Shown in pieces: positions 4,748 through 42,876 of a stretch of 64,000 nucleotides of DNA. The translations under genes were made by a program, and so were the position numbers. The stretch comes from Papillibacter cinnamivorans DSM 12816 (GTDB lineage Bacteria > Bacillota > Clostridia > Oscillospirales > Oscillospiraceae). The notes under the pieces are model-generated. The model searched no databases, was not told the DNA's origin, and saw only the letters and a list, made by a program, of their open reading frames with translations. The stretch covers positions 186,001 to 250,000 of the forward strand of contig NZ_FWXW01000004.1 of the NCBI RefSeq assembly GCF_900176335.1. The letters run 5' to 3'. Numbering within the stretch: position 1 is the first letter of the stretch; each line of letters opens with the position of its first letter.

Positions 4748-5698
4748 TCATCTTTCAAGCTCCCTTTGCTTCTGCCGGTAATGGTGGTAATACTCTAGCG
4801 CTTTGAGTACATACTCTTCGGTTTGCTTAGGAGATATATTATCAGGAATAAACTTGCTGATTCGTTCTGTAGGAATACTGAATTTTGCCCGCTGATTCGG
4901 TTTTTCCTCGCTTATAATGGAGAGAATAACGTCTTCATTGAGCTTGCCGTTTTTGGAAAAGTCACGCATCTTGATGGCCTGCGCCAGAGACGGCGTAGCC
5001 TCCTCTAAGGCAATGGTTTCAATCAAGGCTTCCTGCTCTTCTTTTTCAAGATAGGAGATTTCAACGGCAGGCCGGATTGCGATCTTGCCATCATCAACCA
5101 TGTCCAAAAGAGTTGGAGATAGATTGGTTAAACGAATGTAGCGCTGGATTTGCGTATTGCTGTCAGGAGAATCAACTGCAAGTATTTCTCGTGATTTTCC
5201 AATCAAAGAATCGGGTCCCACTGGGACACCATTTTCTTTCTTTGGTCTTCCTGCTTGTCTTTTCATGGCTTCCAGCTTCATTTTGTAGGAAAAAGCCTTT
5301 TCACTTGGCAGAATATGAGAACGCTGTAAATTCGATTCAACCATTAAAATGATTGCTTCATCTCGTGTTAAATCCTGAACTTCAGCTCTCACAGTGGGAA
5401 GGCCGGCAAGCTCACAAGCTTTTCTTCGCCTGTGCCCAGACACAATTTCATAACGTCCGTTTTCCTTTTGACGGAGAGTAATTGGGGTGATAATACCGCG
5501 CTCTTTAACGCTTTGCACAAGCTGCTCCATATCCTCGTCTATCTTCACCTTAAACGGATGCTCAGGGAAGTTGTCTATCTCTGTAATAGGGATGTCCAGT
5601 ATCTTTGGAGCGCGGTTTTCTACTCGGCCTTTATCGTCCATGAAAAGCTCATCGTATGCGTTCTTCAGACCGAGATCGATTGTTTTGACGCTGCTCAT
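4748..5698 (-). CDS. parB: ParB/Spo0J-family partition protein
   Basis: A 316-residue ParB-type protein. The N-terminal ParB/Srx CTPase fold carries the SGHRRRKA motif. After it come a helical segment (LPSEKAFSYKMKLEAMKRQAGRPK), a central HTH region ending QIQRYIRLTNL, and a C-terminal helical part. ParB proteins load on parS sites and work with ParA in DNA segregation or, on mobile elements, in maintenance and regulation. The start has AGGAGG upstream and lies inside the parA 3' end (50-base overlap), so the two are coupled. It is a distant relative of the two duplicated ParB-like proteins at 11.5 and 21.3 kb, with which it shares the central motif order. Confidence 0.9.
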   Translation of the reverse strand: MSSVKTIDLGLKNAYDELFMDDKGRVENRAPKILDIPITEIDNFPEHPFKVKIDEDMEQLVQSVKERGIITPITLRQKENGRYEIVSGHRRRKACELAGLPTVRAEVQDLTRDEAIILMVESNLQRSHILPSEKAFSYKMKLEAMKRQAGRPKKENGVPVGPDSLIGKSREILAVDSPDSNTQIQRYIRLTNLSPTLLDMVDDGKIAIRPAVEISYLEKEEQEALIETIALEEATPSLAQAIKMRDFSKNGKLNEDVILSIISEEKPNQRAKFSIPTERISKFIPDNISPKQTEEYVLKALEYYHHYRQKQRELER

Positions 5699-6476
5699 TG
5701 TCCAGCACCTCCTTCGTCAGCTGTTCGTAAGCGCATGCAACCTTTCCGCTCCCGTCATGGGCGAAAATGCTCTTGCCCTCAATACTGGTTTCGGCGGCTC
5801 TCACTGAGAATGGAATTTCAGCATCGAAAATACGGAGATTATCGCCGGTTTGGCGAAGAGAATTGATAATTGTTTTAGCGTTGTTTGTCCGGCTATCCAC
5901 CATTGTCAGTAAAACGCCGTCAATTCGGAGCTTTGGATTGATTTGTCGCTTGACCTTTGTGATTGATCGCATCAGCAAGTACAGACCCTTCGTGGATAGA
6001 TAACTGGCCTGAGAAGGTATCATTACGCTGTCCGCAGCAACAAGCGCGTTGATCGTCATCATTCCCAGAGACGGCATGCAGTCGATCAAAATATGGTCAT
6101 AATTCTGCTTCAACAGTTCAAGGGTATCTCGCAATACATACTCGCGGCTCATAACATTGATAAGGCCCACTTCAAAGGCCGACAGCTCAATGTTGGAGGG
6201 GATCAGATCAACGCCCTCGGGGTGATGAATAATGCCGTAGTCTTCCGGTATGGCTTTGTCATCAATAATGTCCTGCATTAGCGTTGCGATAGAGATGGGA
6301 AGCTCGTCGGGCGTTTTTACACCAAGACTCACAGTCAAGCTGCCCTGTGGGTCGGCATCAACGAGCAGTACTTTCTTGCCGGTACGTGCAAGGCCGACTC
6401 CGAGATTGACAGCCGTCGTAGTTTTACCTACTCCGCCTTTCTGGTTTGTGATGGCAATTATTTTGCAGTCTTCCAT
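5649..6476 (-). CDS. parA: ParA/Soj-family partition ATPase
   Basis: About 275 residues from an ATG at 6476, which is preceded by AAAGGAG. A longer reading from 6527 lacks a ribosome site. The deviant Walker A motif KGGVGKTTT lies near residues 13-21. The Walker A' motif VDADPQGS and Walker B-like DHILIDCMPS follow. These mark a bona fide ParA that binds DNA non-specifically in the ATP state and is stimulated by ParB. Its 3' end overlaps parB. Co-location with Tad-like genes and lack of ribosomal or housekeeping neighbours fit an integrative or plasmid-derived element rather than the chromosomal soj-spo0J pair. Confidence 0.92.
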   Translation of the reverse strand: MEDCKIIAITNQKGGVGKTTTAVNLGVGLARTGKKVLLVDADPQGSLTVSLGVKTPDELPISIATLMQDIIDDKAIPEDYGIIHHPEGVDLIPSNIELSAFEVGLINVMSREYVLRDTLELLKQNYDHILIDCMPSLGMMTINALVAADSVMIPSQASYLSTKGLYLLMRSITKVKRQINPKLRIDGVLLTMVDSRTNNAKTIINSLRQTGDNLRIFDAEIPFSVRAAETSIEGKSIFAHDGSGKVACAYEQLTKEVLDNEQRQNNRSRSEERIR

Positions 6477-6670
6477 GTGCGTGCACTCCTTTCTGTGTAA
6501 TAAAAAATCCTTCCTGGCAGATACCAAGAAGGACTATGTAAGTTGCAAAGAATTCAGTGAAAGTTGAGCATGTTCACGCGCTCTATGAAAATTTGGTCAT
6601 TGATATTACAATCCATTGCCCTTGAGGAGTTTTGCTTTGAGGTTACAAAGGGATATGCCGAAAAAGATAT

Positions 6671-11319: not shown

Positions 11320-11484
11320 CTTTTATTACTGCTACAAGGTCAACCGGGCAATTTTTTCACGACACATTCACCGTCTGTGTGCGGGGAGTGCGAGTTATAG
11401 ACAAAATCCATGCTTCAATTGTCATTTGATAAAATGTTTATAACTCGACTAAAGTCGTTTGTATTTTTGTGTCTCGCGGTGCGT

Positions 11485-12360
11485 TCAGCGAGCATCGTCC
11501 CTGGACTTCTGCAGTTTCCGCTGGCGTTCGGCCAGCATCCGGAGGATGGATTGTTCCATTTGCTCCGCGGTATAGCCTTTGGGAAAATAGGCGGCGAATT
11601 TGTCGGCGCGGAAGGTCAGCTTGTCCCGTTGATTGGCCTTCTGCTCGGACATGATTTTGATGAGCTCCAGCTCGGTCAGCTTTCCGGTCTGCTGGAGCGC
11701 TTTCAGCCGAACTGCCTGGGACAGGGACGGCGTACACTGCTGCATCCGGCAGAAATCCAGAAGAATTTCCTGCTTCTTTTTCGGCAGGTAGGAGAGTTCC
11801 ACTGCCGGGGACATGGCGATGCTCTTTTCATCCACTAGCCTCAACAGGTCTGGGATGAGGTTGGTAAGTCGGATATATCGCTGAATTTGCACCCGGCTAT
11901 CTTCTGAACCGTCTGCCAGACTTTGAATTGATTTCTTCCCCTCCGGCTTGTGCCCAAGTTGGGCACAAGTTAAATCTGTGCGTTTTCCCTGATGCTTCAT
12001 GGCTTCAAGTTTCATCTTGTAGGCAAACGCCTTTTCGCTGGGCAACAGGTTTTCCCGCTGCTGGTTCGAATCCACCATGATGATGGTGGCGGCGTCATCG
12101 TCCAAATCTCTGATGACCACCGGCATGGTGGCCATGTCCGCAAGTTCGCTGGCGGCCTTGCGGCGGTGGCCGGAGATCAGCTCATATCCGCCCTCGGGCT
12201 TTGGCCGCACGATGCCCGGCGTGACGACGCCGTGATCGGCGATGCTTTTAGCCAGCTCCCGTAGCTCGTCATCCTGTTCCACATGGAAGGGGTGGTTTTT
12301 GAACGGATGTAATTCCGTCAGCGCGATCTCGTGGATTTTCTCCCGCTTATCGTCATCCAT
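11485..12360 (-). CDS. ParB-family protein, left duplicate
   Basis: About 291 residues from the ATG at 12360 (MDDDKREK), which has AAGGAG upstream. An ATG six codons earlier overlaps the HTH gene stop and is less likely. It has the ParB N-domain with SGHRRKAASEL, a helical segment LPSEKAFAYKMKLEA, a central HTH (QIQRYIRLTNL) and a conserved C-terminal part (CTPSLSQAVRLKALQQTGKLTELEL). It is about as similar to the right duplicate as an allele, except between residues of about 140 and 180, where the sequence differs completely. No ParA partner is adjacent, so the role may be element maintenance or transcriptional control rather than classical partition. Confidence 0.88.
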   Translation of the reverse strand: MDDDKREKIHEIALTELHPFKNHPFHVEQDDELRELAKSIADHGVVTPGIVRPKPEGGYELISGHRRKAASELADMATMPVVIRDLDDDAATIIMVDSNQQRENLLPSEKAFAYKMKLEAMKHQGKRTDLTCAQLGHKPEGKKSIQSLADGSEDSRVQIQRYIRLTNLIPDLLRLVDEKSIAMSPAVELSYLPKKKQEILLDFCRMQQCTPSLSQAVRLKALQQTGKLTELELIKIMSEQKANQRDKLTFRADKFAAYFPKGYTAEQMEQSILRMLAERQRKLQKSRDDAR

Positions 12361-12374
12361 AATTATTTCTCCTT

Positions 12375-12860
12375 TCATTCTTCTGCCTGTTCTTTGATTT
12401 CCCCCTCCGTCAGCCGCTTCGCCGCTACATATTTCTGATAGACATAGGCGGGTTGATCGGGCTTGGTCATGACGAGAGTCCCCTCGGCCACCAGCGGCTG
12501 GAGAACGGATTCCATAAAGAAACGCTTGTCCGCAAGGTCCAGAAACTCCTGAATCTGCTTGCGGCTTTTCGGCTCCTGACAGAATACGGTCACGGCCGCC
12601 TTGCGCTGTTTGCGGAAGCTCTCCTGCCGGATGAAGCCGTACCGCTGGATGTATTCGATGATCCACAGCTTGGCGGTTCGCACATCCCGGCTGTCCTTGA
12701 AGCTCTTGATCTCGCCGGAACGGAACATCCGGTACACCCGCTTGATTGGCAGGCGCAGCATGCTTGCCGCCTCCTGGGCCGTTACGATATCCTCGTACTC
12801 GGAAAACATCATCATGTAGCACTCGTCGATGGTATATGTAGTCTTATTCTGTTTGCTCAT
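12375..12860 (-). CDS. Small HTH (excisionase/MerR-like) DNA-binding protein, left duplicate
   Basis: 161 residues from an ATG at 12860 with GGAG upstream. An extension to 12926 lacks a ribosome site. The N-terminal third holds a helix-turn-helix of the excisionase/MerR type (VTAQEAASMLRLPIKRVYRMFRSGEI). The C-terminal half looks like a second winged-helix (SRKQIQEFLDLADKRFF, then TLVMTKPDQPAYV). It directly precedes the parB-like gene with a 14-base gap, and the pair is duplicated at 22.2 kb with only about six amino-acid changes. A role in controlling excision or the parB-like gene is plausible but unproven. Confidence 0.78.
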   Translation of the reverse strand: MSKQNKTTYTIDECYMMMFSEYEDIVTAQEAASMLRLPIKRVYRMFRSGEIKSFKDSRDVRTAKLWIIEYIQRYGFIRQESFRKQRKAAVTVFCQEPKSRKQIQEFLDLADKRFFMESVLQPLVAEGTLVMTKPDQPAYVYQKYVAAKRLTEGEIKEQAEE

Positions 12861-12901
12861 AGTCCGTCTCCTGTTTCTGTTTTTCGGCAGACAGAAAAAG
12901 A

Positions 12902-13007
12902 GCGGGCATTTTCGAAAGAATCTCACACATTCGTCCTCGATTTCGCGCGTTTTGCTCGCAAAAAATCGAAAAGACGTTTTGAATGAGGTATTTTCGGAAA
13001 TGCCCGC
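12902..13007. promoter_or_regulatory. Nested imperfect palindrome upstream of the HTH gene
   Basis: Outer 14-base arms (12902-12915 GCGGGCATTTTCGA and 12994-13007 TCGGAAATGCCCGC) differ at one position. Between them an inner partial dyad runs from the TCGATTTCGCG area to the CGCAAAAAATCGA area. The same structure lies upstream of the right HTH copy. It is a good candidate binding site for the HTH or ParB-like proteins, or a transfer/origin-type site. It also serves as the leader of the HTH gene. Confidence 0.5.
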
Positions 13008-13122
13008 GTATCAAGGCTTTCCGGGTTTTAGACCCCGAAAAGGCTTAAATTGCAGGGGTTTTTTGGTCGCCTGGATCAGCCTTGTCTCACCACAGCTCGC
13101 CTCAGGTCACCAGAGCAGAATG

Positions 13123-13132
13123 TTGCTCGAAA
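13123..13132. other. Attachment-core-like sequence TTGCTCGAAA, left
   Basis: Marks the exact right edge of the left 1.65-kb repeat. It is identical to the core at 22945-22954, where it is fused to tRNA-Ser sequence. Here what follows (GGTAAACAGCC) is not tRNA-like, so this would be an element-element junction. Confidence 0.6.
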
Positions 13133-15011: not shown

Positions 15012-15671
15012 TTACAGAAGCTCGAACTGATTTTTGTGAAACTTCAGGACGCCGTCATCTCTGAGCTTTGAAAGCTCAGCCGACATGGCGCTGCGCTCGA
15101 CGGAAAGGTAGTCCGCGAGTTCCTGCCGGTTGAACGGAATACAAAATCGGCTGCTTCCCGCTTTTTTTGCCTCGGCCGAAAGGTATGCCATAAGCTTTTC
15201 GCGGGTGCTTCGTTTTGAGGTAAATTCAATTTTCTGCGTCAGCGATATGTTTTTCATGGATACGATACTCAGCATATTCTGAATGAGCCTGCTGTGAAAA
15301 CCGCACGCCTTGGCGCACGGAACGGCAAGCCTGTGACAGTCGATAAAGAGGAGCTCGCTTTCGGTCGTTGTGATAACACTGACCGGAAGCGTTTTCATTT
15401 CCGCGCAGGCAAAGGATTCCCCAAACAGGTTTCCAATGTCGATTTTGGCAAGGATACTTCTGTTCCCATAATAGTCGTCCTGAACAACCTGAACTTCCCC
15501 CGACAAAACGATGCCGAACCGCTCAATTCTTTCGCCGCTGGAAAATACGGTTTGACCTTTTCCATATTGAATCGCTTTTGCGGACAGGCACGATAAAAGC
15601 GGCTGTAAATCTGATTCTTCAATGCCTTTGAATAATTGCACCGTTTTCAGTACACTCATATAATTTTTCAT
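15012..15671 (-). CDS. Crp/Fnr-family regulator (island, type B)
   Basis: 219 residues with a cyclic-nucleotide-binding-type N-domain and a C-terminal HTH (recognition region SVERSAMSAELSKL). A cysteine-rich stretch IDCHRLAVPCAKACGFHSRL (about 123-142) sits where a heme, Fe-S or thiol sensor could lie, and it is kept in the chromosomal paralogue at 37.6 kb. It is divergent from the ferredoxin-like gene, with a perfect GTTGGAATTCCAAC palindrome between. It most likely controls that operon and itself. The HTH is nearly identical to that of the paralogue, predicting the same operator. Confidence 0.87.
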   Translation of the reverse strand: MKNYMSVLKTVQLFKGIEESDLQPLLSCLSAKAIQYGKGQTVFSSGERIERFGIVLSGEVQVVQDDYYGNRSILAKIDIGNLFGESFACAEMKTLPVSVITTTESELLFIDCHRLAVPCAKACGFHSRLIQNMLSIVSMKNISLTQKIEFTSKRSTREKLMAYLSAEAKKAGSSRFCIPFNRQELADYLSVERSAMSAELSKLRDDGVLKFHKNQFELL

Positions 15672-15684
15672 AATATCCTCTTTC

Positions 15685-15726
15685 GTTGGAATTCCAACAT
15701 ACTTATTACCTTAAGAATAGTAAACT
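15685..15726 (+). promoter_or_regulatory. Crp-type operator and promoter of the ferredoxin-cupin-rubredoxin-hcp operon
   Basis: A perfect palindrome GTTGGAATTCCAAC (15685-15698, centre 15691.5) lies 29.5 bases before a -10-like TAAACT (15721-15726). That is exactly the spacing seen at 14290 and 38285. It also lies just upstream of the Crp gene reading the other way. Confidence 0.65.
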
Positions 15727-15786
15727 CAAGACATAAAGTCAACAAGAATATGAAACAAAGCACTCGAAAGAAAAGGTGAACGGGAC

Positions 15787-16491
15787 ATGATTCGAAAAAT
15801 TGTCCGAATTGACGAAGAAAAATGTAACGGCTGCGGACTGTGTGCAAAAGCCTGCCATGAAGGCGCGATCGGCATGGTAAACGGAAAAGCGAAGCTTCTC
15901 AGAGACGATTACTGCGACGGTCTGGGCGACTGCCTGCCGGCCTGCCCGACGGGTGCCATCAGTTTTGAAGAACGCGAAGCGAAAGAATACGACGAAGCCG
16001 CCGTAAAGAAAAGCAAGCTGAGCAAACAGGAAGAAACACCGGCCTGCGGATGCCCGGGAACACAGCCCAAAACCATTCGCCGGGAAGCCGGATGCGAAAT
16101 CGCCCGGACCGAATCATTTGAGAATAAAAGCCAGCTCACGCAGTGGCCGGTCCAAATTAAGCTTGCGCCGGTTAACGCGCCGTATTTTGCAGGCGCGAAC
16201 CTGCTGATCGCTGCCGACTGTACGGCCTATGCTTACGGCGATTTCCACAACAGGTTTATCAGGAATAAAGTGACCCTGATCGGCTGCCCCAAGCTTGACG
16301 AAGGGGATTACAGCGAAAAATTGACGGAGATCATTAAAAACAACAGCATTAAAAGCGTCACGGTCGTGCGCATGGACGTACCCTGCTGCGGAGGGATCGA
16401 AAACGCGATAAAAAAGGCGCTTCAAAACAGCGGAAAAATGATTCCTTGGCAGATTGTCACGATTTCGCCCGATGGCAAAATACTTGATTGA
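15787..16491 (+). CDS. Ferredoxin-like protein with N-terminal 2x[4Fe-4S] domain (island copy)
   Basis: 234 residues. The N-terminal domain has CNGCGLCAKACHEGAI and a second set YCDGLGDCLPACPTGAI, both consistent with cubane clusters. After a low-complexity linker, a C-terminal domain carries further conserved cysteines (CPGTQPK, AADCTAYAYGDF, LIGCPKLD, VPCCGGIE). This looks like a redox-active or metal-binding domain of unknown function. It is the first gene of an operon with cupin, rubredoxin, hcp and ferredoxin. It has a close paralogue at 38.4 kb. A role in electron delivery to Hcp is plausible. Confidence 0.82.
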   Translation: MIRKIVRIDEEKCNGCGLCAKACHEGAIGMVNGKAKLLRDDYCDGLGDCLPACPTGAISFEEREAKEYDEAAVKKSKLSKQEETPACGCPGTQPKTIRREAGCEIARTESFENKSQLTQWPVQIKLAPVNAPYFAGANLLIAADCTAYAYGDFHNRFIRNKVTLIGCPKLDEGDYSEKLTEIIKNNSIKSVTVVRMDVPCCGGIENAIKKALQNSGKMIPWQIVTISPDGKILD

Positions 16492-16505
16492 AAGGGGTAC
16501 GCGTT

Positions 16506-16820
16506 ATGATAGAAAAAGAGTATAAGCTGTCCGGAACCAATAAAAAAGCCATAGAAAAAGTCCTGTTTGACGAAAACCTTCATTACCTCCACATGGTGTT
16601 TAACAAAGGCGAGGGATTGCCGGAGCACTTTTCCAATTCTAACGTGTATATGACCGTCATTCGCGGAAGGCTCTCCATTGGCCTTGATGAGCAGGAAATC
16701 CACGAGTACGAAGCCGGAACCCTACTGAAGATTCCGTTCCAAACTAAAATGAATGTCAGAAATGTGCATGACGAAACGCTGGAGTTAATTGTCGTAAAAG
16801 CGCCCGCTCCAAAAAGCTGA
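16506..16820 (+). CDS. Small cupin-domain protein (island copy)
   Basis: About 104 residues from an ATG at 16506 with AAAGGGG upstream. A single cupin barrel is visible: the [16 protein letters not shown] segment as motif 1 and the [16 protein letters not shown] segment as motif 2. Cupin folds of this size bind a metal or small ligand. Only one or two of the usual histidines are obvious (LPEHF), so catalytic activity is uncertain. It always follows the ferredoxin-like gene in this window, here and at 39.1 kb, suggesting they act together. Confidence 0.8.
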
Positions 16821-16840
16821 GAAAACGAGGCGGAAACCAG

Positions 16841-21102: not shown

Positions 21103-21301
21103 TTTCCAAAATACAAAACCCCATATTGACTGCTTGAAAAACAAGCAGCGAAACGGGATTTTGTGCTCAAACTAATTCGTTCATAATACAGTATAAATCC
21201 TTGAATCGATTCAAGATGAGTCGCCAATTTTTTACTGATCCCGTTATTATCCGAGGAGATGTCAATTGAGCAGAATAGTTTTTTGATATAATCGCATTAA
21301 T
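21103..21301. other. Short gap before the right repeat
   Basis: About 200 bases with no gene and no clear signal that I can support. Confidence 0.4.
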
Positions 21302-21315
21302 GCCTCGCGGCACAT

Positions 21316-22182
21316 TCAGCGCTCATTGTCTCTGGCCTTTTTCAGTTTCTGCTGGCGCTCGGCCAGCATCCGGAGAATGGATTTTTCCATCTGCTCTGCG
21401 GTATAGCCTTTGGGGAAATAGGCGGCGAATTTGTCGGCGCGAAAGGTCAGCTTGTCCCGTTGATTGGCCTTCTGTTCGGACATGATCTTGATAAGCTCCA
21501 GCTCGGTCAGCTTGCCGGTTTGCTGGAGTGCTTTCAGCCGCACCGCTTGGGACAGAGACGGCGTGCACTGCTGCATCCGGCAGAAATCCAGAAGAATTTC
21601 CTGCTTTTTCTTCGGCAGGCAAGAGAGCTCTACTGCCGGGGACATGGCAATGCTCTTTTCGTCCACGAGCTTCAGCAGATCGGGGATGAGATTGGTGAGG
21701 CGGATAAAGCGGCGAACAGTATCCCCACTGATACCTGCCTGAGCGGCAATTTCATCATCACTTCTGAAATTCGCCGCAACTTGCGGCGAATTAGCTTTTG
21801 GCCTGCCAGCTTGCCGCTTTATTGCCTCAAGCTTCATCTTGTAGGCAAACGCTTTCTCGCTGGGAAGCAGGTTTTCTCGCTGCTGATTCGAGTCCACCAT
21901 AATGATGGTGGCTGCGTCATCGTCTAGTTCCCGTATGACCACCGGCATGGTGGCCACGCCCGCAAGTTCGCTGGCGGCTTTTCGGCGGTGGCCGGAGATC
22001 AGCTCATAGCCGCCCTCAGGTTTGGACCGCACGATACCCGGAGTGACGACGCCGTGATCGGCAATGCTTTTCGCCAGTTCCCGCAGTTCGTCGTCCTGTT
22101 CCACATGGAAAGGGTGGTTTTTGAACGGATGTAAATCAGTCAGCGCGATTTCGTGGATCTTCTCCCTCTTATCGTCATCCAT
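21316..22182 (-). CDS. ParB-family protein, right duplicate
   Basis: About 288 residues from the ATG at 22182 with AAGGAG upstream. The N-terminal and C-terminal thirds are nearly identical to the left duplicate. The central HTH region is different (RSDDEIAAQAGISGDTV, then RRFIRLTNL, instead of the left copy's SIQSLADGSEDSRV, then QIQRYIRLTNL). This implies the two copies recognise different DNA sites. It belongs to the two-gene module with the HTH protein just upstream. No adjacent ParA. Confidence 0.88.
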   Translation of the reverse strand: MDDDKREKIHEIALTDLHPFKNHPFHVEQDDELRELAKSIADHGVVTPGIVRSKPEGGYELISGHRRKAASELAGVATMPVVIRELDDDAATIIMVDSNQQRENLLPSEKAFAYKMKLEAIKRQAGRPKANSPQVAANFRSDDEIAAQAGISGDTVRRFIRLTNLIPDLLKLVDEKSIAMSPAVELSCLPKKKQEILLDFCRMQQCTPSLSQAVRLKALQQTGKLTELELIKIMSEQKANQRDKLTFRADKFAAYFPKGYTAEQMEKSILRMLAERQQKLKKARDNER

Positions 22183-22196
22183 AATTATTTCTCCTT

Positions 22197-22682
22197 TCAT
22201 TCTTCGACCTGTTCTTTGATCTCCTGCCCGGTCAGCCGCTTTGCCGCCACATACTTCTGGTGGACGTAGGCGGGCTGGTCGGGCTTGGTCATGACGAGGG
22301 TCCCCTCAGCCACCAGTGGCTGCAGGACGGATTCCATAAAGAACCGCTTGTCTGCGAGGTCTAGAAACTCCTGAATCTGCTTGCGGCTTTTCGGCTCCTG
22401 ACAAAACACAGTAACAGCCGCTTTACGTTGCTTCCGAAAACTCTCCTGCCGGATGAAGCCATAGCGCTGGACATACTCGATGATCCATAGCTTGGCGGTA
22501 CGGACATCGCGTGCGTCCTTAAAGCTTTTGATCTCGCCGGAGCGGAACATCCGATATACCCGCTTTACCGGCAGGCGCAGCATGCTTGCCGCCTCCTGGG
22601 CCGTTACGATATCCTCGTACTCGGAGAACATCATCATGTAACACTCGTCGATGGTATATGTAGTCTTATTCTGTTTGCTCAT
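22197..22682 (-). CDS. Small HTH (excisionase/MerR-like) protein, right duplicate
   Basis: 161 residues from an ATG at 22682 with GGAG upstream. It is almost identical to the protein at 12375-12860: I to V, S to A and Y to H changes plus two near the C-terminus. The same N-terminal excisionase-like HTH and C-terminal winged helix are present. The upstream nested palindrome is kept. Silent differences are more numerous than amino-acid ones, suggesting both copies are or were under selection. Confidence 0.78.
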   Translation of the reverse strand: MSKQNKTTYTIDECYMMMFSEYEDIVTAQEAASMLRLPVKRVYRMFRSGEIKSFKDARDVRTAKLWIIEYVQRYGFIRQESFRKQRKAAVTVFCQEPKSRKQIQEFLDLADKRFFMESVLQPLVAEGTLVMTKPDQPAYVHQKYVAAKRLTGQEIKEQVEE

Positions 22683-22944
22683 AGTCCGTCTCCTGTTTCT
22701 GTTTTTCGGCAGACAGAAAAAGAGCGGGCATTTTCGAAAGAATCTCACACATTCGTCCTCGATTTCGCGCGTTTTGCTCGCAAAAAATCGAAAAGACGTT
22801 TTGAATGAGGTATTCTCGGAAATGCCCGCGTATAAAGGCTTTCCGGGTTTCAGGCCCCGAAAAGCTCTGTATTGCAGGGGGTTTGCGGTCGCCTGGATCA
22901 GCCTTGTCTCACCACAGCTCGCCTCAGGTCGCCGGAGCGGTCAA

Positions 22945-23003
22945 TTGCTCGAAATCAGTTTGACGGCAACGTCACGTGGGTTCGAATCCCGCCATCTCCG
23001 CCA
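22945..23003 (+). tRNA. 3' part of tRNA-Ser(CGA), attachment-site scar
   Basis: The sequence from 22948 reads as the anticodon loop CTCGAAA (anticodon CGA), a 3' anticodon stem strand, and a class II variable arm TGACG-GCAA-CGTCA. It continues with a perfect T arm GTGGG-TTCGAAT-CCCGC, the acceptor strand CATCTCC, discriminator G and encoded CCA at 23001-23003. The 5' half is replaced by mobile-element sequence: the five bases before the loop do not pair with the stem. So this is a tRNA fragment left by integration at the anticodon loop, not a working gene. The rebuilt gene should lie at the other end of the element. Confidence 0.82.
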
Positions 23004-37613: not shown

Positions 37614-38270
37614 CTACAGAAGTTCAAATTCGTCCCTGTGAAAATTCAAAACACCCTCTTTTCTGAGCTTTGAAAGCACCGCCGACATTGCGCTGCGCTC
37701 GACGGAAAGGTAATCCGCCAGTTCCTGCCGGTCAAACGGGATGCAAAAACGGCTGCTTCCCGACTTTTGCGCTTCTGACGACAGGTAGGACAGAAGCTTT
37801 TCCCGGGTGGAGCGCTTGGAAATGAATTCGATTTTTTGCGTCAGCGCGATATTCTTCCGGGCTACAATATCCAGCATGTTCTGAATCAGCCTGCTGTGAA
37901 AGCCGCACGCCTTCTGGCATGGAGCGGCAAGCCTGCGGCAGTCGATAAAAAGAAGCTCGCTTTCGGTCGTCGCCATCACGCTGACCGGAAGCGTTTTATT
38001 GTCCGCGCAGGCGAAAGATTCGCCGAACAGATTGCCCGGCCCGATTTTTGCCAGAATACTTCGATTTCCGTAATAATCATCCTGTACGACCTGTACCTGC
38101 CCGGACAAAACGATGCCGAAAGAATCGGTGGGCTCGCCGCTGTGAAACACGGCGCTTCCTTTCTCGTAATGAGCCTGTTTCGCGGACAGGCAGGACAGAA
38201 GCGGCTCCAGGTCGGACGTTTCAATCCCCAGGAACAGGTCGACGGATGCAAGGATATCCGGATAATTCAT
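37614..38270 (-). CDS. Crp/Fnr-family regulator (chromosomal paralogue of the type B island regulator)
   Basis: 218 residues from an ATG at 38270 with AAGGGA upstream. The much longer open frame to 39497 runs antisense through two real genes. It closely resembles the island regulator at 15012-15671, including the cysteine stretch IDCRRLAAPCQKACGFHSRL and HTH SVERSAMSAVLSKL. A near-perfect GTTGGATTTCCAAC lies in the divergent promoter region. Probably controls the next two genes and itself, and may cross-talk with the island copy because the recognition helix is nearly the same. Confidence 0.87.
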   Translation of the reverse strand: MNYPDILASVDLFLGIETSDLEPLLSCLSAKQAHYEKGSAVFHSGEPTDSFGIVLSGQVQVVQDDYYGNRSILAKIGPGNLFGESFACADNKTLPVSVMATTESELLFIDCRRLAAPCQKACGFHSRLIQNMLDIVARKNIALTQKIEFISKRSTREKLLSYLSSEAQKSGSSRFCIPFDRQELADYLSVERSAMSAVLSKLRKEGVLNFHRDEFELL

Positions 38271-38284
38271 CGTATGTCCCTTCT

Positions 38285-38326
38285 GTTGGATTTCCAACAT
38301 ACTTTTTTCTTTCAGAATAGTAGACT
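38285..38326 (+). promoter_or_regulatory. Crp-type operator and promoter of the chromosomal ferredoxin-cupin pair
   Basis: Palindrome GTTGGATTTCCAAC (38285-38298, centre 38291.5) with -10-like TAGACT at 38321-38326. The 29.5-base spacing is identical to that of the island promoters. Confidence 0.65.
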
Positions 38327-38375
38327 TAAAGCGTAAAGTCAATGGGAACCCCCTGGAAAGAGAAAGGTGACAGAT

Positions 38376-39077
38376 ATGTTCCGGAAAATCATCAGGATCG
38401 ACGAAGAGAAGTGCACGGGATGCGGAAAATGCGCCGAAGCCTGCCACGAAGGCGCTATCGGCATGGTAAACGGAAAGGCCAGACTGCTCAGGGACGACTA
38501 CTGCGACGGTTTGGGAGACTGCCTGCCGGCCTGCCCCGCCGGGGCAATCGGGTTTGAAACACGCGAAGCGTCGGCGTACGACGAGTCCGCCGTGCAGGAG
38601 AACAAACGGAATCGGCAGGACGGCAGCTCGTGCAGCTGCCCCGGCACGCAGCCGAAAGCCGTACGGCACGACTCCGCCGGTCAGGCTGCCGCCTCCGACA
38701 GGAGCGAACCCATAAGCCGACTTGCGCAGTGGCCCGTCCAGATCAAGCTTGCTCCGGTAAAAGCACCGTATTTTGCGGACGCGAATCTTCTCATTGCCGC
38801 CGACTGCACGGCTTATGCCCGCGGCGATTTTCACAGCCGTTTTATGAAAAACCGGATCACGCTGATAGGCTGCCCCAAGCTGGACGACGGGGATTACGGC
38901 GATAAGCTGACGGCGATTCTGAAAAACAACGAGATAAAAAGCGTAACGATAGTCCGCATGGAGGTCCCCTGCTGCGGGGGGATTGAAAACGCGGTGAAAA
39001 GGGCGCTGCAAAGCAGCGGAAAATTTCTGCCGTGGCAGGTCGTCACCGTGGCGGCCGACGGAAGAATCCTGGAATAA
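38376..39077 (+). CDS. Ferredoxin-like protein with 2x[4Fe-4S] domain (chromosomal copy)
   Basis: 233 residues from the ATG at 38376 with AAAGGTG upstream. Same architecture as the island copy: CTGCGKCAEACHEGAI and YCDGLGDCLPACPAGAI, a variable linker, then the cysteine-bearing C-terminal domain (CPGTQPK, AADCTAYARGDF, LIGCPKLDDGD, VPCCGGIE). The linker is the least conserved part, the C-terminal domain is highly conserved. This points to a specific function for the C-domain that is still unrecognised. Followed by the cupin gene. Confidence 0.82.
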   Translation: MFRKIIRIDEEKCTGCGKCAEACHEGAIGMVNGKARLLRDDYCDGLGDCLPACPAGAIGFETREASAYDESAVQENKRNRQDGSSCSCPGTQPKAVRHDSAGQAAASDRSEPISRLAQWPVQIKLAPVKAPYFADANLLIAADCTAYARGDFHSRFMKNRITLIGCPKLDDGDYGDKLTAILKNNEIKSVTIVRMEVPCCGGIENAVKRALQSSGKFLPWQVVTVAADGRILE

Positions 39078-39092
39078 AAGGAGGGAAAACCT

Positions 39093-39407
39093 ATGGTGGA
39101 ACAAGTATTTATACTGTCTGCGGGCGATGAAAAAGCAGTGGAAAAAGTCATCTTCGACGAGAACCTGCATTATATCCATCTGGTATTCGGCAGGGACGAG
39201 GGGCTTCCCGAGCATTATTCCAATGCAAATCTTTACATGACCGTCATAAGAGGCAGGCTTTCCATCGGGCTGGATGAGCAGGAGATCCACGAATATAAAG
39301 CCGGTACCTTGCTGAAGATCCCGTTTCATACGAAGATGAACGTGAAGAACCTGCATTCGGAAACGCTGGAGCTGATTCTTGTGAAAGCTCCTGCCCCAAT
39401 AAGCTGA
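39093..39407 (+). CDS. Small cupin-domain protein (chromosomal copy)
   Basis: 104 residues, close paralogue of the protein at 16506-16820. Same cupin segments ([41 protein letters not shown]). AAAGGAGGG precedes the start. Unlike the island, no rubredoxin or hcp follows, so the minimal conserved unit is regulator, ferredoxin-like protein and cupin. Confidence 0.82.
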   Translation: MVEQVFILSAGDEKAVEKVIFDENLHYIHLVFGRDEGLPEHYSNANLYMTVIRGRLSIGLDEQEIHEYKAGTLLKIPFHTKMNVKNLHSETLELILVKAPAPIS

Positions 39408-39486
39408 GGGAAACAGCCGGCAGGTTCTTTCCCAAAAACGGGGATATGAAGCGGGATGCTGAAACTCGGGAAAAACGCAGGCGAAT

Positions 39487-39535
39487 CCCAAGCACATAAA
39501 AAATCACCCGCCGGGTGATTTTTTATGTGCTTGGG
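39487..39535. terminator. Very strong terminator after the cupin gene
   Basis: A 23-bp perfect inverted repeat (arms 39487-39509 and 39513-39535, inner GAxxxxTCACCC/GGGTGAxxxxTT) with internal A/T runs, 80 bases after the stop. Confidence 0.85.
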
Positions 39536-42513: not shown

Positions 42514-42876
42514 GATATGGCACCTCCGGAATAAAATCGGTATTAAATCCTCGCAGCGGTTAAAATAGCGGCATCTTCCAAAAGCGCATCATGGTATAGG
42601 GGCCGCTTTGCGGCTATTGTACCACAGGCGCGAAGCGGCTCGTGGTATATGGCATCGCCGCCGGTTGCACCGCGAGGTGCGAGGCGGAGGCGCCGTCGAA
42701 CCTGGTATAATAGATGCTTTGCGGCTATTATACCACAGGAGCGAAGCGGCTCGTGGTATATGGCATCGCCGCCGGTTGCACCGCGAGGTGCGAGGCGGAC
42801 GCGCCGTCGAACCTGGTTAATAGACGCTTTGCGGCTATTATACCACAATGTGCTCGAGAGAATCAAAGAGATTGGG
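42514..42876 (-). repeat. Tandem repeats between mnmA and iscR
   Basis: A unit of about 110 bases is repeated: about 42600-42713, 42714-42823, and a partial third at 42824-42849. Each contains TTTGCGGCTATTATACCACA, a run ending CGAACCTGG, and a GCACC-GCGA-GGTGC hairpin. Where the units meet, TGGTATAATAG faces CTATTATACCA across about 11 bases, giving -10-like TATAAT on both strands. No gene. A leader or regulatory region for iscR is possible. Confidence 0.75.

Follow-up and report, generated by a model that had tools for sequence, protein, structure and literature searches.

In the 64,000-nucleotide window (the whole stretch of DNA analysed here), two ParB-like genes are nearly identical at both ends and unrelated in between. 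This arrangement raises the question of what is exchanged in such a gene, and of what becomes of the DNA site that the encoded protein would read. The genes belong to a two-gene module that is present twice on the minus strand, each time with a gene for a small helix-turn-helix (HTH) protein followed by a ParB-like gene.

11485..12378, minus strand: left ParB-like gene, an open frame whose ATG overlaps the stop of the upstream gene
12375..12926, minus strand: partner gene of the left module, with HTH_17 and a Fic-like C-terminal domain, distantly excisionase-like
11876..11993, minus strand: left specificity cassette, a gap between BLAST pieces, unrelated to the right copy
21316..22200, minus strand: right ParB-like gene, with ParB_N and HTH_ParB matches and an AlphaFold model
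22197..22748, minus strand: partner gene of the right module, with Fic-like_C and HTH_17
21707..21815, minus strand: right specificity cassette, a gap between BLAST pieces

The two modules (11470–13132 versus 21301–22954, ~1.66 kb) align as two BLAST pieces with 88.7–89.9% identity. The alignment is interrupted only once, with sharp edges, by a block of 109–118 bp (11876–11993 on the left and 21707–21815 on the right) that codes for a linker, helix 3 and the beginning of recognition helix 4. When the two ParB-like genes were aligned by codons, 66 of 102 nt differed in the densest discordant block, versus 91 of the remaining 789 nt. The encoded proteins are 94% identical in the flanks and 16% in the central segment, and the pair ranks first for discordance among all 6670 pairs of 116 homologues. 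Because the break is visible in the DNA, selection on the protein alone is not its cause. An initial annotation of this DNA had described near-identical ends around an unrelated centre and had assigned the swapped part to DNA recognition, and the comparisons made here bear out both statements.

The 116 homologues came from genome contigs, from genomes within the same family and from the organism's own genome. They were compared pairwise once 8 of 124 had been removed, namely one distant paralogue and 7 duplicates that belong to the own genome. As a control, an alignment window was slid along all pairs whose remaining alignment was at least 80% identical, and pairs in which the window itself was less than 50% identical were counted. 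At residues ~133–167 this was true of 428 of 1847 pairs, and at the overlapping positions ~121–155 and ~145–179 of 272 of 1812 and 12 of 1749 pairs, respectively. In each of the other 19 alignment windows the count was 0 of 1474–1651 pairs. Discordance is therefore confined to the central windows and reflects neither chance nor smooth divergence along the gene, the pattern that the initial annotation had set against its proposal that recombination changes the recognised site. Identity across the 116 homologues correlates at 0.92 between the N- and C-terminal flanks and at 0.40–0.44 between either flank and the centre, so that the centre varies apart from the flanks, in support of that proposal.

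Even among the 485 pairs with flanks at least 95% identical, the centre is less than 50% identical in 30%, and one genome (G502) holds two genes with 100% identical flank residues, unlike centres and different sites. Swapped pairs with a clear block show indels and unrelated DNA inside it and 7–15% nucleotide difference outside; the automatic block finder, applied to nine pairs, returned a wrong block for L276/L278 and only a partial block for several. From near-identical flanks combined with conflicting similarity, we infer exchange of the segment. The codons immediately upstream of the segment are the best conserved stretch of the gene (0.31–0.59 bits per column), and those immediately downstream have 0.72–0.78 bits per column, versus up to 1.8 elsewhere. 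Such conservation at both edges would make homologous crossovers more likely in these codons.

Visual inspection of the aligned pair brought to light odd-centred palindromes within the swapped block. In both copies the linker DNA is a perfect odd-centred palindrome of 23–25 bp, and its sequence differs between the copies.

11947..11969, no strand assigned: left embedded palindrome CTTGTGCCCAA-N-TTGGGCACAAG, presumed site of the left ParB, with perfect arms of 11
21768..21792, no strand assigned: right embedded palindrome AATTCGCCGCAA-N-TTGCGGCGAATT, presumed site of the right ParB, with perfect arms of 12

These are two of the eight palindromes in the window that score at least 10. A count of exact 14-bp palindromes within 4 kb of the genes, made separately for each central type, gave no shared motif because only even centres were allowed. 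When the whole gene was scanned in 254 full-length homologues (3 partial rows of 257 having been dropped), the best palindrome lay at the same codon column in 241. A score of at least 10 was reached in 81 of 94 distinct central segments, and none of 564 windows taken elsewhere in these genes scored 8 or more. When codons were redrawn at random for an unchanged peptide, 74 of the 94 segments had p≤0.001 and 87 had p≤0.01, while 5 lay above 0.05.

The commonest form of the palindrome is AACTT-S-NNNN-CAA-N-TTG-NNNN-S-AAGTT, about 25 bp long, in which the innermost CAA-N-TTG is the most constant portion. At bases −4 to −8 the two arms vary together; these positions are Watson–Crick paired in 41–45 of 47 distinct sites and carry three or four different bases each, and 52 four-base cores occur among 240 rows. 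Palindrome scores below 7 were obtained for 25 of 308 genes. In most of them a decayed palindrome of this form is still present, and about eight have none; one (L136) has a good site outside the search range and is hence counted among the low scorers.

Both proteins match ParB_N (PF02195; left 66.1 and right 67.8 bits, cut-off 26.3) and TIGR00180 (93.2 and 91.4, cut-off 58.45). For HTH_ParB (PF17762, cut-off 22.6 bits), the right protein scores 23.0, a third ParB of the window 22.7, and the left protein 19.3, which is below the cut-off. In the nucleotide-binding motifs GxRR and NxQR, residues G70, R72, R73, N105, Q107 and R108 are invariant among 46 family members, and position 71 is H in at least 90% of them. 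An AlphaFold model of the right ParB, made from a 46-row alignment, has a mean pLDDT of 87.5. Foldseek matched this model to ParB, Noc and KorB structures, which places the fold in the ParB clamp family. The helices that concern us here were located as follows.

11908..11934, minus strand: left helix 3 region of the HTH, residues 149–157, from the alignment to the right copy and the model
11863..11898, minus strand: left recognition helix 4 SRVQIQRYIRLT, residues 161–172, from the alignment to the right copy and the model
21736..21762, minus strand: right helix 3, residues 147–155, from the AlphaFold model
21691..21726, minus strand: right recognition helix 4 GDTVRRFIRLTN, residues 159–170, from the AlphaFold model

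The right palindrome encodes residues 137–145, directly before helix 3. Residues 131–140 and 141–150 have mean pLDDT values of 57 and 66 and form the least certain stretch of the protein's middle. The linker stands out as an insertion in each of three alignments, to Thermus Spo0J, to Spo0J 6sdk and to Noc 7nfu. As the linker is both inserted and the part that encodes the palindrome, it may exist to hold the site.

If the palindrome is read by the protein, its bases should follow the residues that read them. Of the 254 rows, 31 without a score of 8 at the column and then 11 of the remaining 223 without the helix anchor were dropped, and the 212 rows left gave 164 distinct site–helix pairs, which were scored for mutual information with helix residues numbered relative to the R of RYIRL. 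Helix residue −4 shares 1.14 bits with base −4 and 1.02 bits with base −5 (z 26 and 27; 164 pairs), and helix residue −18 shares 0.99 bits with base −7 (z 25; 164 pairs). The peaks for bases −4 and −5 fall on residues two and three of the S-x-x-x-[IV] motif that starts recognition helix 4, and those for bases −7 and −6 at the residues just preceding and starting helix 3. When the numbering is transferred by way of the alignment to Thermus Spo0J, positions −16 and −5 of the helices correspond to Q162 and R173 of Caulobacter ParB; according to PMC7383237, these two residues contact parS and R173 is a specificity residue.

The covarying helix residues are not encoded by the palindrome itself. Helix and site are nevertheless linked, and the covariation is partly inherited. 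Inheritance is probably not its whole cause, since the linker columns, which lie nearer on the DNA, gave near-zero values: no more than 0.08 bits with any of bases −4 to −7, as did columns further upstream. The outer bases −9 and −11 track the linker, as expected for codons of two linker types.

Individual pairings are close to uniform. At base −5, G accompanies Arg in 36 of 36 cases and Lys in 17 of 17 (53 of 53 together). At base −4, G accompanies Asp in 34 of 34, and C accompanies Asn in 45 of 45, or Asn, Ser and Thr in 65 of 65. At base −7, Arg goes with G (52 of 54), Glu with C (16 of 16), Lys with T (24 of 25) and Gln with A (4 of 4). Arg–G, Gln–A and Asp/Glu–C are classical direct contacts. 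At helix position −4 the left copy carries Val, which is rare there (2 of 164) and little covered by the rules. If such an amino-acid-to-base code can be read, the site of a new member would be predictable from its helices. Leaving out whole helix clusters (50 clusters), accuracy at bases −4 to −7 was 0.88, 0.87, 0.70 and 0.70, versus 0.45, 0.44, 0.48 and 0.55. From 21 further records we set aside 4 without an anchor, 4 with training helices and 1 without a score-7 palindrome, which left 12 helices non-identical to the training helices, some of them close. On these the rules were correct in 12 of 12 at −4, 12 of 12 at −5, 5 of 6 at −6 and 10 of 11 at −7, a rule being available for 6 of the 12 at −6 and 11 of the 12 at −7, and one helix being scored by a two-base rule (C/T at −5). 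The palindromes of 5 of the 21 records, 3 of them among the 12, had been visible before the rules were written; for the 9 helices with palindromes unseen beforehand, the counts were 9 of 9, 9 of 9, 3 of 4 and 8 of 9.

The site tracks the helices and not the flanks. Over 240 rows, the core changes at least 161 times when mapped on the flank tree and 83 times on the helix tree, which is built from 22 HTH residues; for shuffled labels the number is 192–203. Many rows are near-identical, so these counts are not dated events. Four genes compared with four paralogues are 45–48% identical in their flanks, have 21–22 of 23 helix residues identical and share the core CCGCC, in 16 of 16 pairs. A centre that varies independently of the flanks and together with a palindromic site, as the initial annotation had envisaged, was thus found on both counts across the homologues. 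That reading was half right; the place of the palindrome inside the swapped segment had gone unseen.

In the 2.89 Mb genome of the organism, the left palindrome has one copy at up to 3 mismatches. The right palindrome has one copy at up to 2 mismatches, and one 3-mismatch match lies on contig C10. The site of a relative, sought in six genomes with up to two mismatches, was present at six places in four genomes; by their coordinates all six are inside family parB genes, and two different genes of genome G415 share the site. A further copy of the site, at up to 3 mismatches, lies around 3 of 247 genes (1.71 Mb of loci), and the arrangement in PMC12704722, with parS upstream of the operon, is therefore not seen at these loci.

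The initial annotation had also suggested that the swap lets related elements live together. The window pair and the G502 pair do differ in site, yet genomes give no general sign of avoiding equal sites: of 84 within-genome pairs, 6 have the half-site in common, versus 2.98 expected by random dealing (48 genomes with at least two genes read; the counts are low, and a copy that is integrated is not necessarily active). Where flanks are at least 0.90 identical, the site is shared by 2 of 6 within-genome pairs, versus 0.307 of 88 pairs between genomes. The set that gave the 84 pairs comprised 317 genes minus 7 partial ones and 2 without an anchor, and its threshold of 7 lets in a few off-position palindromes, for example that of L207. 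The suggestion of coexistence is not supported by these counts. As a separate observation, loci L013, L014, L023 and L031 each carry two family ParB genes in tandem, ~2 kb apart, with differing embedded sites.

A third family ParB of the window adjoins a ParA gene.

4748..5698, minus strand: third family ParB, embedded site decayed, with 10 of 13 paired bases and core GTCCCA-N-TGGGAC
5649..6527, minus strand: ParA of the third ParB, AAA_31 match of 196.9 bits

This ParB is 40–44% identical overall to the window pair. Its claimed likeness to the left copy stands for the recognition helix (..QIQRYIRLT) and fails for the linker (RQAGRPK), which resembles that of the right copy. A search of the window for a better site, with two patterns derived from relatives, gave only the decayed in-gene site and the site of the left copy, besides scattered matches at 5 or more mismatches. 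A fourth family ParB lies on the same contig outside the window. No ParA was found beside the two window modules. Across the family, an upstream ParA match was found for 128 of 204 testable genes and none for the other 76, both window modules included; as the window modules are without an adjacent ParA, partition by orphans is at most putative.

Several family members reside on plasmids or on conjugative elements, in Clostridia and relatives. Embedded palindromes also extend to a distant paralogue kind with another HTH type (L086 1437–2438, 28% identical to the right copy) and to its relatives L353, L356, L357 and L373; a viral scan with this paralogue gave two remote loci, which were left out of the comparisons. 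Four phage ParBs (L349–L352) have no embedded palindrome. The chromosomal ParB and Noc of the organism (L001 and L002) lack a linker site of this kind, their best palindromes scoring 7 (even-centred, with two mismatches) and 4. In a later set of 30 loci, seven (L369–L372, L380, L383 and L384), some of them remote ParBs, have no palindrome, and the sites of L366 and L381 are decayed. Among the loci compared, close relatives of the partner gene are confined to L093, L102 and the two modules of the window. Those of L093 and L102 also adjoin ParB genes, and the embedded site of L102 is decayed.

Several other features of the window were recorded. At and upstream of the partner-gene start, 173 bp (12820–12992 and 22642–22814) are 100% identical between the modules, versus ~89% elsewhere in them, which may reflect recent gene conversion or a constrained control region. 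Between the ParA–ParB pair and the left module lies a CBASS-type anti-phage operon (6671–11049, minus strand) with genes for an oligonucleotide cyclase (SMODS), an E1–E2 fusion, a JAB peptidase and a SAVED effector (2TM effector models). Adjoining the right module, 19840–21102 matches the PADLOC candidate family PDC-S01 (E 3.8e-105). The window further contains a 1.8 kb duplicated block (15035–16821 and 37637–39408, 74% DNA identity), an overlapping direct repeat of ~133 bp with 96% identity (42605–42847) and other long palindromes with arms of 15–16 at 39511, 46571 and 50607.

Taken from sequence comparison, the explanation that we regard as very probable is that each gene carries its own protein's predicted parS-like binding site within an exchangeable cassette. 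The predicted site would be written in codons for a flexible linker that immediately precedes the HTH, and each subunit would read the variable bases −4 to −7 of one half-site with recognition helix 4 and the beginning of helix 3. Reader and site would be exchanged by crossovers, presumably through homologous recombination, on the upstream side in the codons for SE[KR]AFAYKMKLEA.. and on the downstream side in those for RYIRLT.LIP.LL..VD. Because both are contained within ~120 bp, recombination in the conserved flanks would replace them at once, and a gene would gain a new specificity in one step with the match of reader and site kept. By analogy to ParB, a dimer would load at the single in-gene site and then spread along the element. 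With an adjacent ParA it may form a partition complex, and in orphan modules such as the two in the window it may regulate or mark the locus that encodes it. We also think it likely that reader and target constitute one exchangeable unit, that the linker exists to hold a centromere-like site, that the family moves among more than 50 specificities through replacement of ~120 bp, and that an amino-acid-to-base code underlies them.

One alternative, which we consider possible but doubtful, is that the palindrome is an autoregulatory operator only, at which bound ParB blocks the elongating RNA polymerase and so sets its own level with no role in segregation; exchange of the cassette would then merely prevent cross-repression among related elements. 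This account is compatible with the main claim, a site read by the protein, and it is suited by a site that is within the gene and mostly single, and by the 76 of 204 genes, the window modules among them, that have no upstream ParA match. Against it stand the 128 genes that do have one, the ParB clamp fold and the lack of cross-talk avoidance within genomes. It is improbable, by comparison of the DNA inside and outside the block, that the central segment arose by fast point mutation under selection with no exchange of segments. Many intermediate variants exist, and site and helix could co-evolve stepwise; however, unrelated DNA and indels inside the block, against 7–15% nucleotide difference outside it in swapped pairs with a clear block, the G502 pair included, speak against this reading, as do near-identical helices with the same core on flanks that are 45–48% identical, and 161 site changes on the flank tree versus 83 on the helix tree.

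Inverted repeats are typical targets of recombinases and the edges of the segment are recurrent, so the segment might be shuffled by a site-specific recombinase that acts on the palindrome. We hold this to be very improbable, as the palindrome is allele-specific, lies inside the exchanged block rather than at its edges, and has bases that track residues of the ParB helices. Least credible of all, and extremely improbable, is an mRNA hairpin in the coding region acting as an attenuator or in translational control. The inverted repeat on the sense strand can fold, but its mismatches there comprise 12 G.T versus 30 A.C and 41 others over 122 distinct sites, so that wobble pairs are not preferred, and on these mismatch types the RNA hairpin was rejected. 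In addition, CAA-N-TTG is the most constant portion although it is unable to pair fully across a one-base loop, the bases covary with DNA-reading residues, and the window has no Rfam match at gathering thresholds.

An exchangeable cassette holding both reader and site, the explanation that we favour, would illustrate joint change of a DNA-binding protein and its site with no mismatched intermediate, a problem that PMC7383237 approaches through mutational paths. The 164 distinct reader–site pairs are a natural data set, showing a simple code, with which ParB–parS recognition and its evolution are testable and partly predictable. They also provide a computed candidate site for a common kind of ParB, relatives at E≤1e-40 being present in 144 of 400 sampled genomes of the taxonomic family that the window comes from.

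The family resembles ParB/Spo0J–parS (ParABS) and Noc–NBS in its ParB_N domain, its predicted HTH and its clamp-family fold. Unlike the sites of those systems, its sites are odd-centred, ~25 bp long, diversified into 52 cores and placed in an extra linker within the gene. PMC4442127 places parS-359 of Bacillus subtilis within the parB gene (PMC4333373 also mentions a parS in parB), and in PMC4333373 it is one of eight functional parS of one consensus in that species. The family site is likewise inside parB and, unlike parS-359, adjoins the HTH, is mostly single, is hypervariable and is co-exchanged with its reader. As a matter of background, parS-359 lies away from the HTH codons of parB. By inspection, the embedded palindromes also differ from the canonical parS TGTTTCACGTGAAACA given in PMC4333373, being other sequences with an odd centre. 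Permissive and specificity-switching mutations on the route from ParB to Noc, as described in PMC7383237, indicate that a few helix residues alter the site that is read; that route runs through stepwise substitution with sites located elsewhere, whereas the family has a natural cassette with reader and presumed site together. A literature search within one collection of papers found no ParB gene with an embedded, co-varying site. In the HsdS subunits of type I restriction systems, conserved flanks permit the recombinational swap of a target-recognition segment. We know of no HsdS gene with its own target in the swapped DNA. The family is thus like HsdS in that a recognition segment is swapped between conserved flanks, and unlike HsdS, as far as is known, in that the cassette would include the target.
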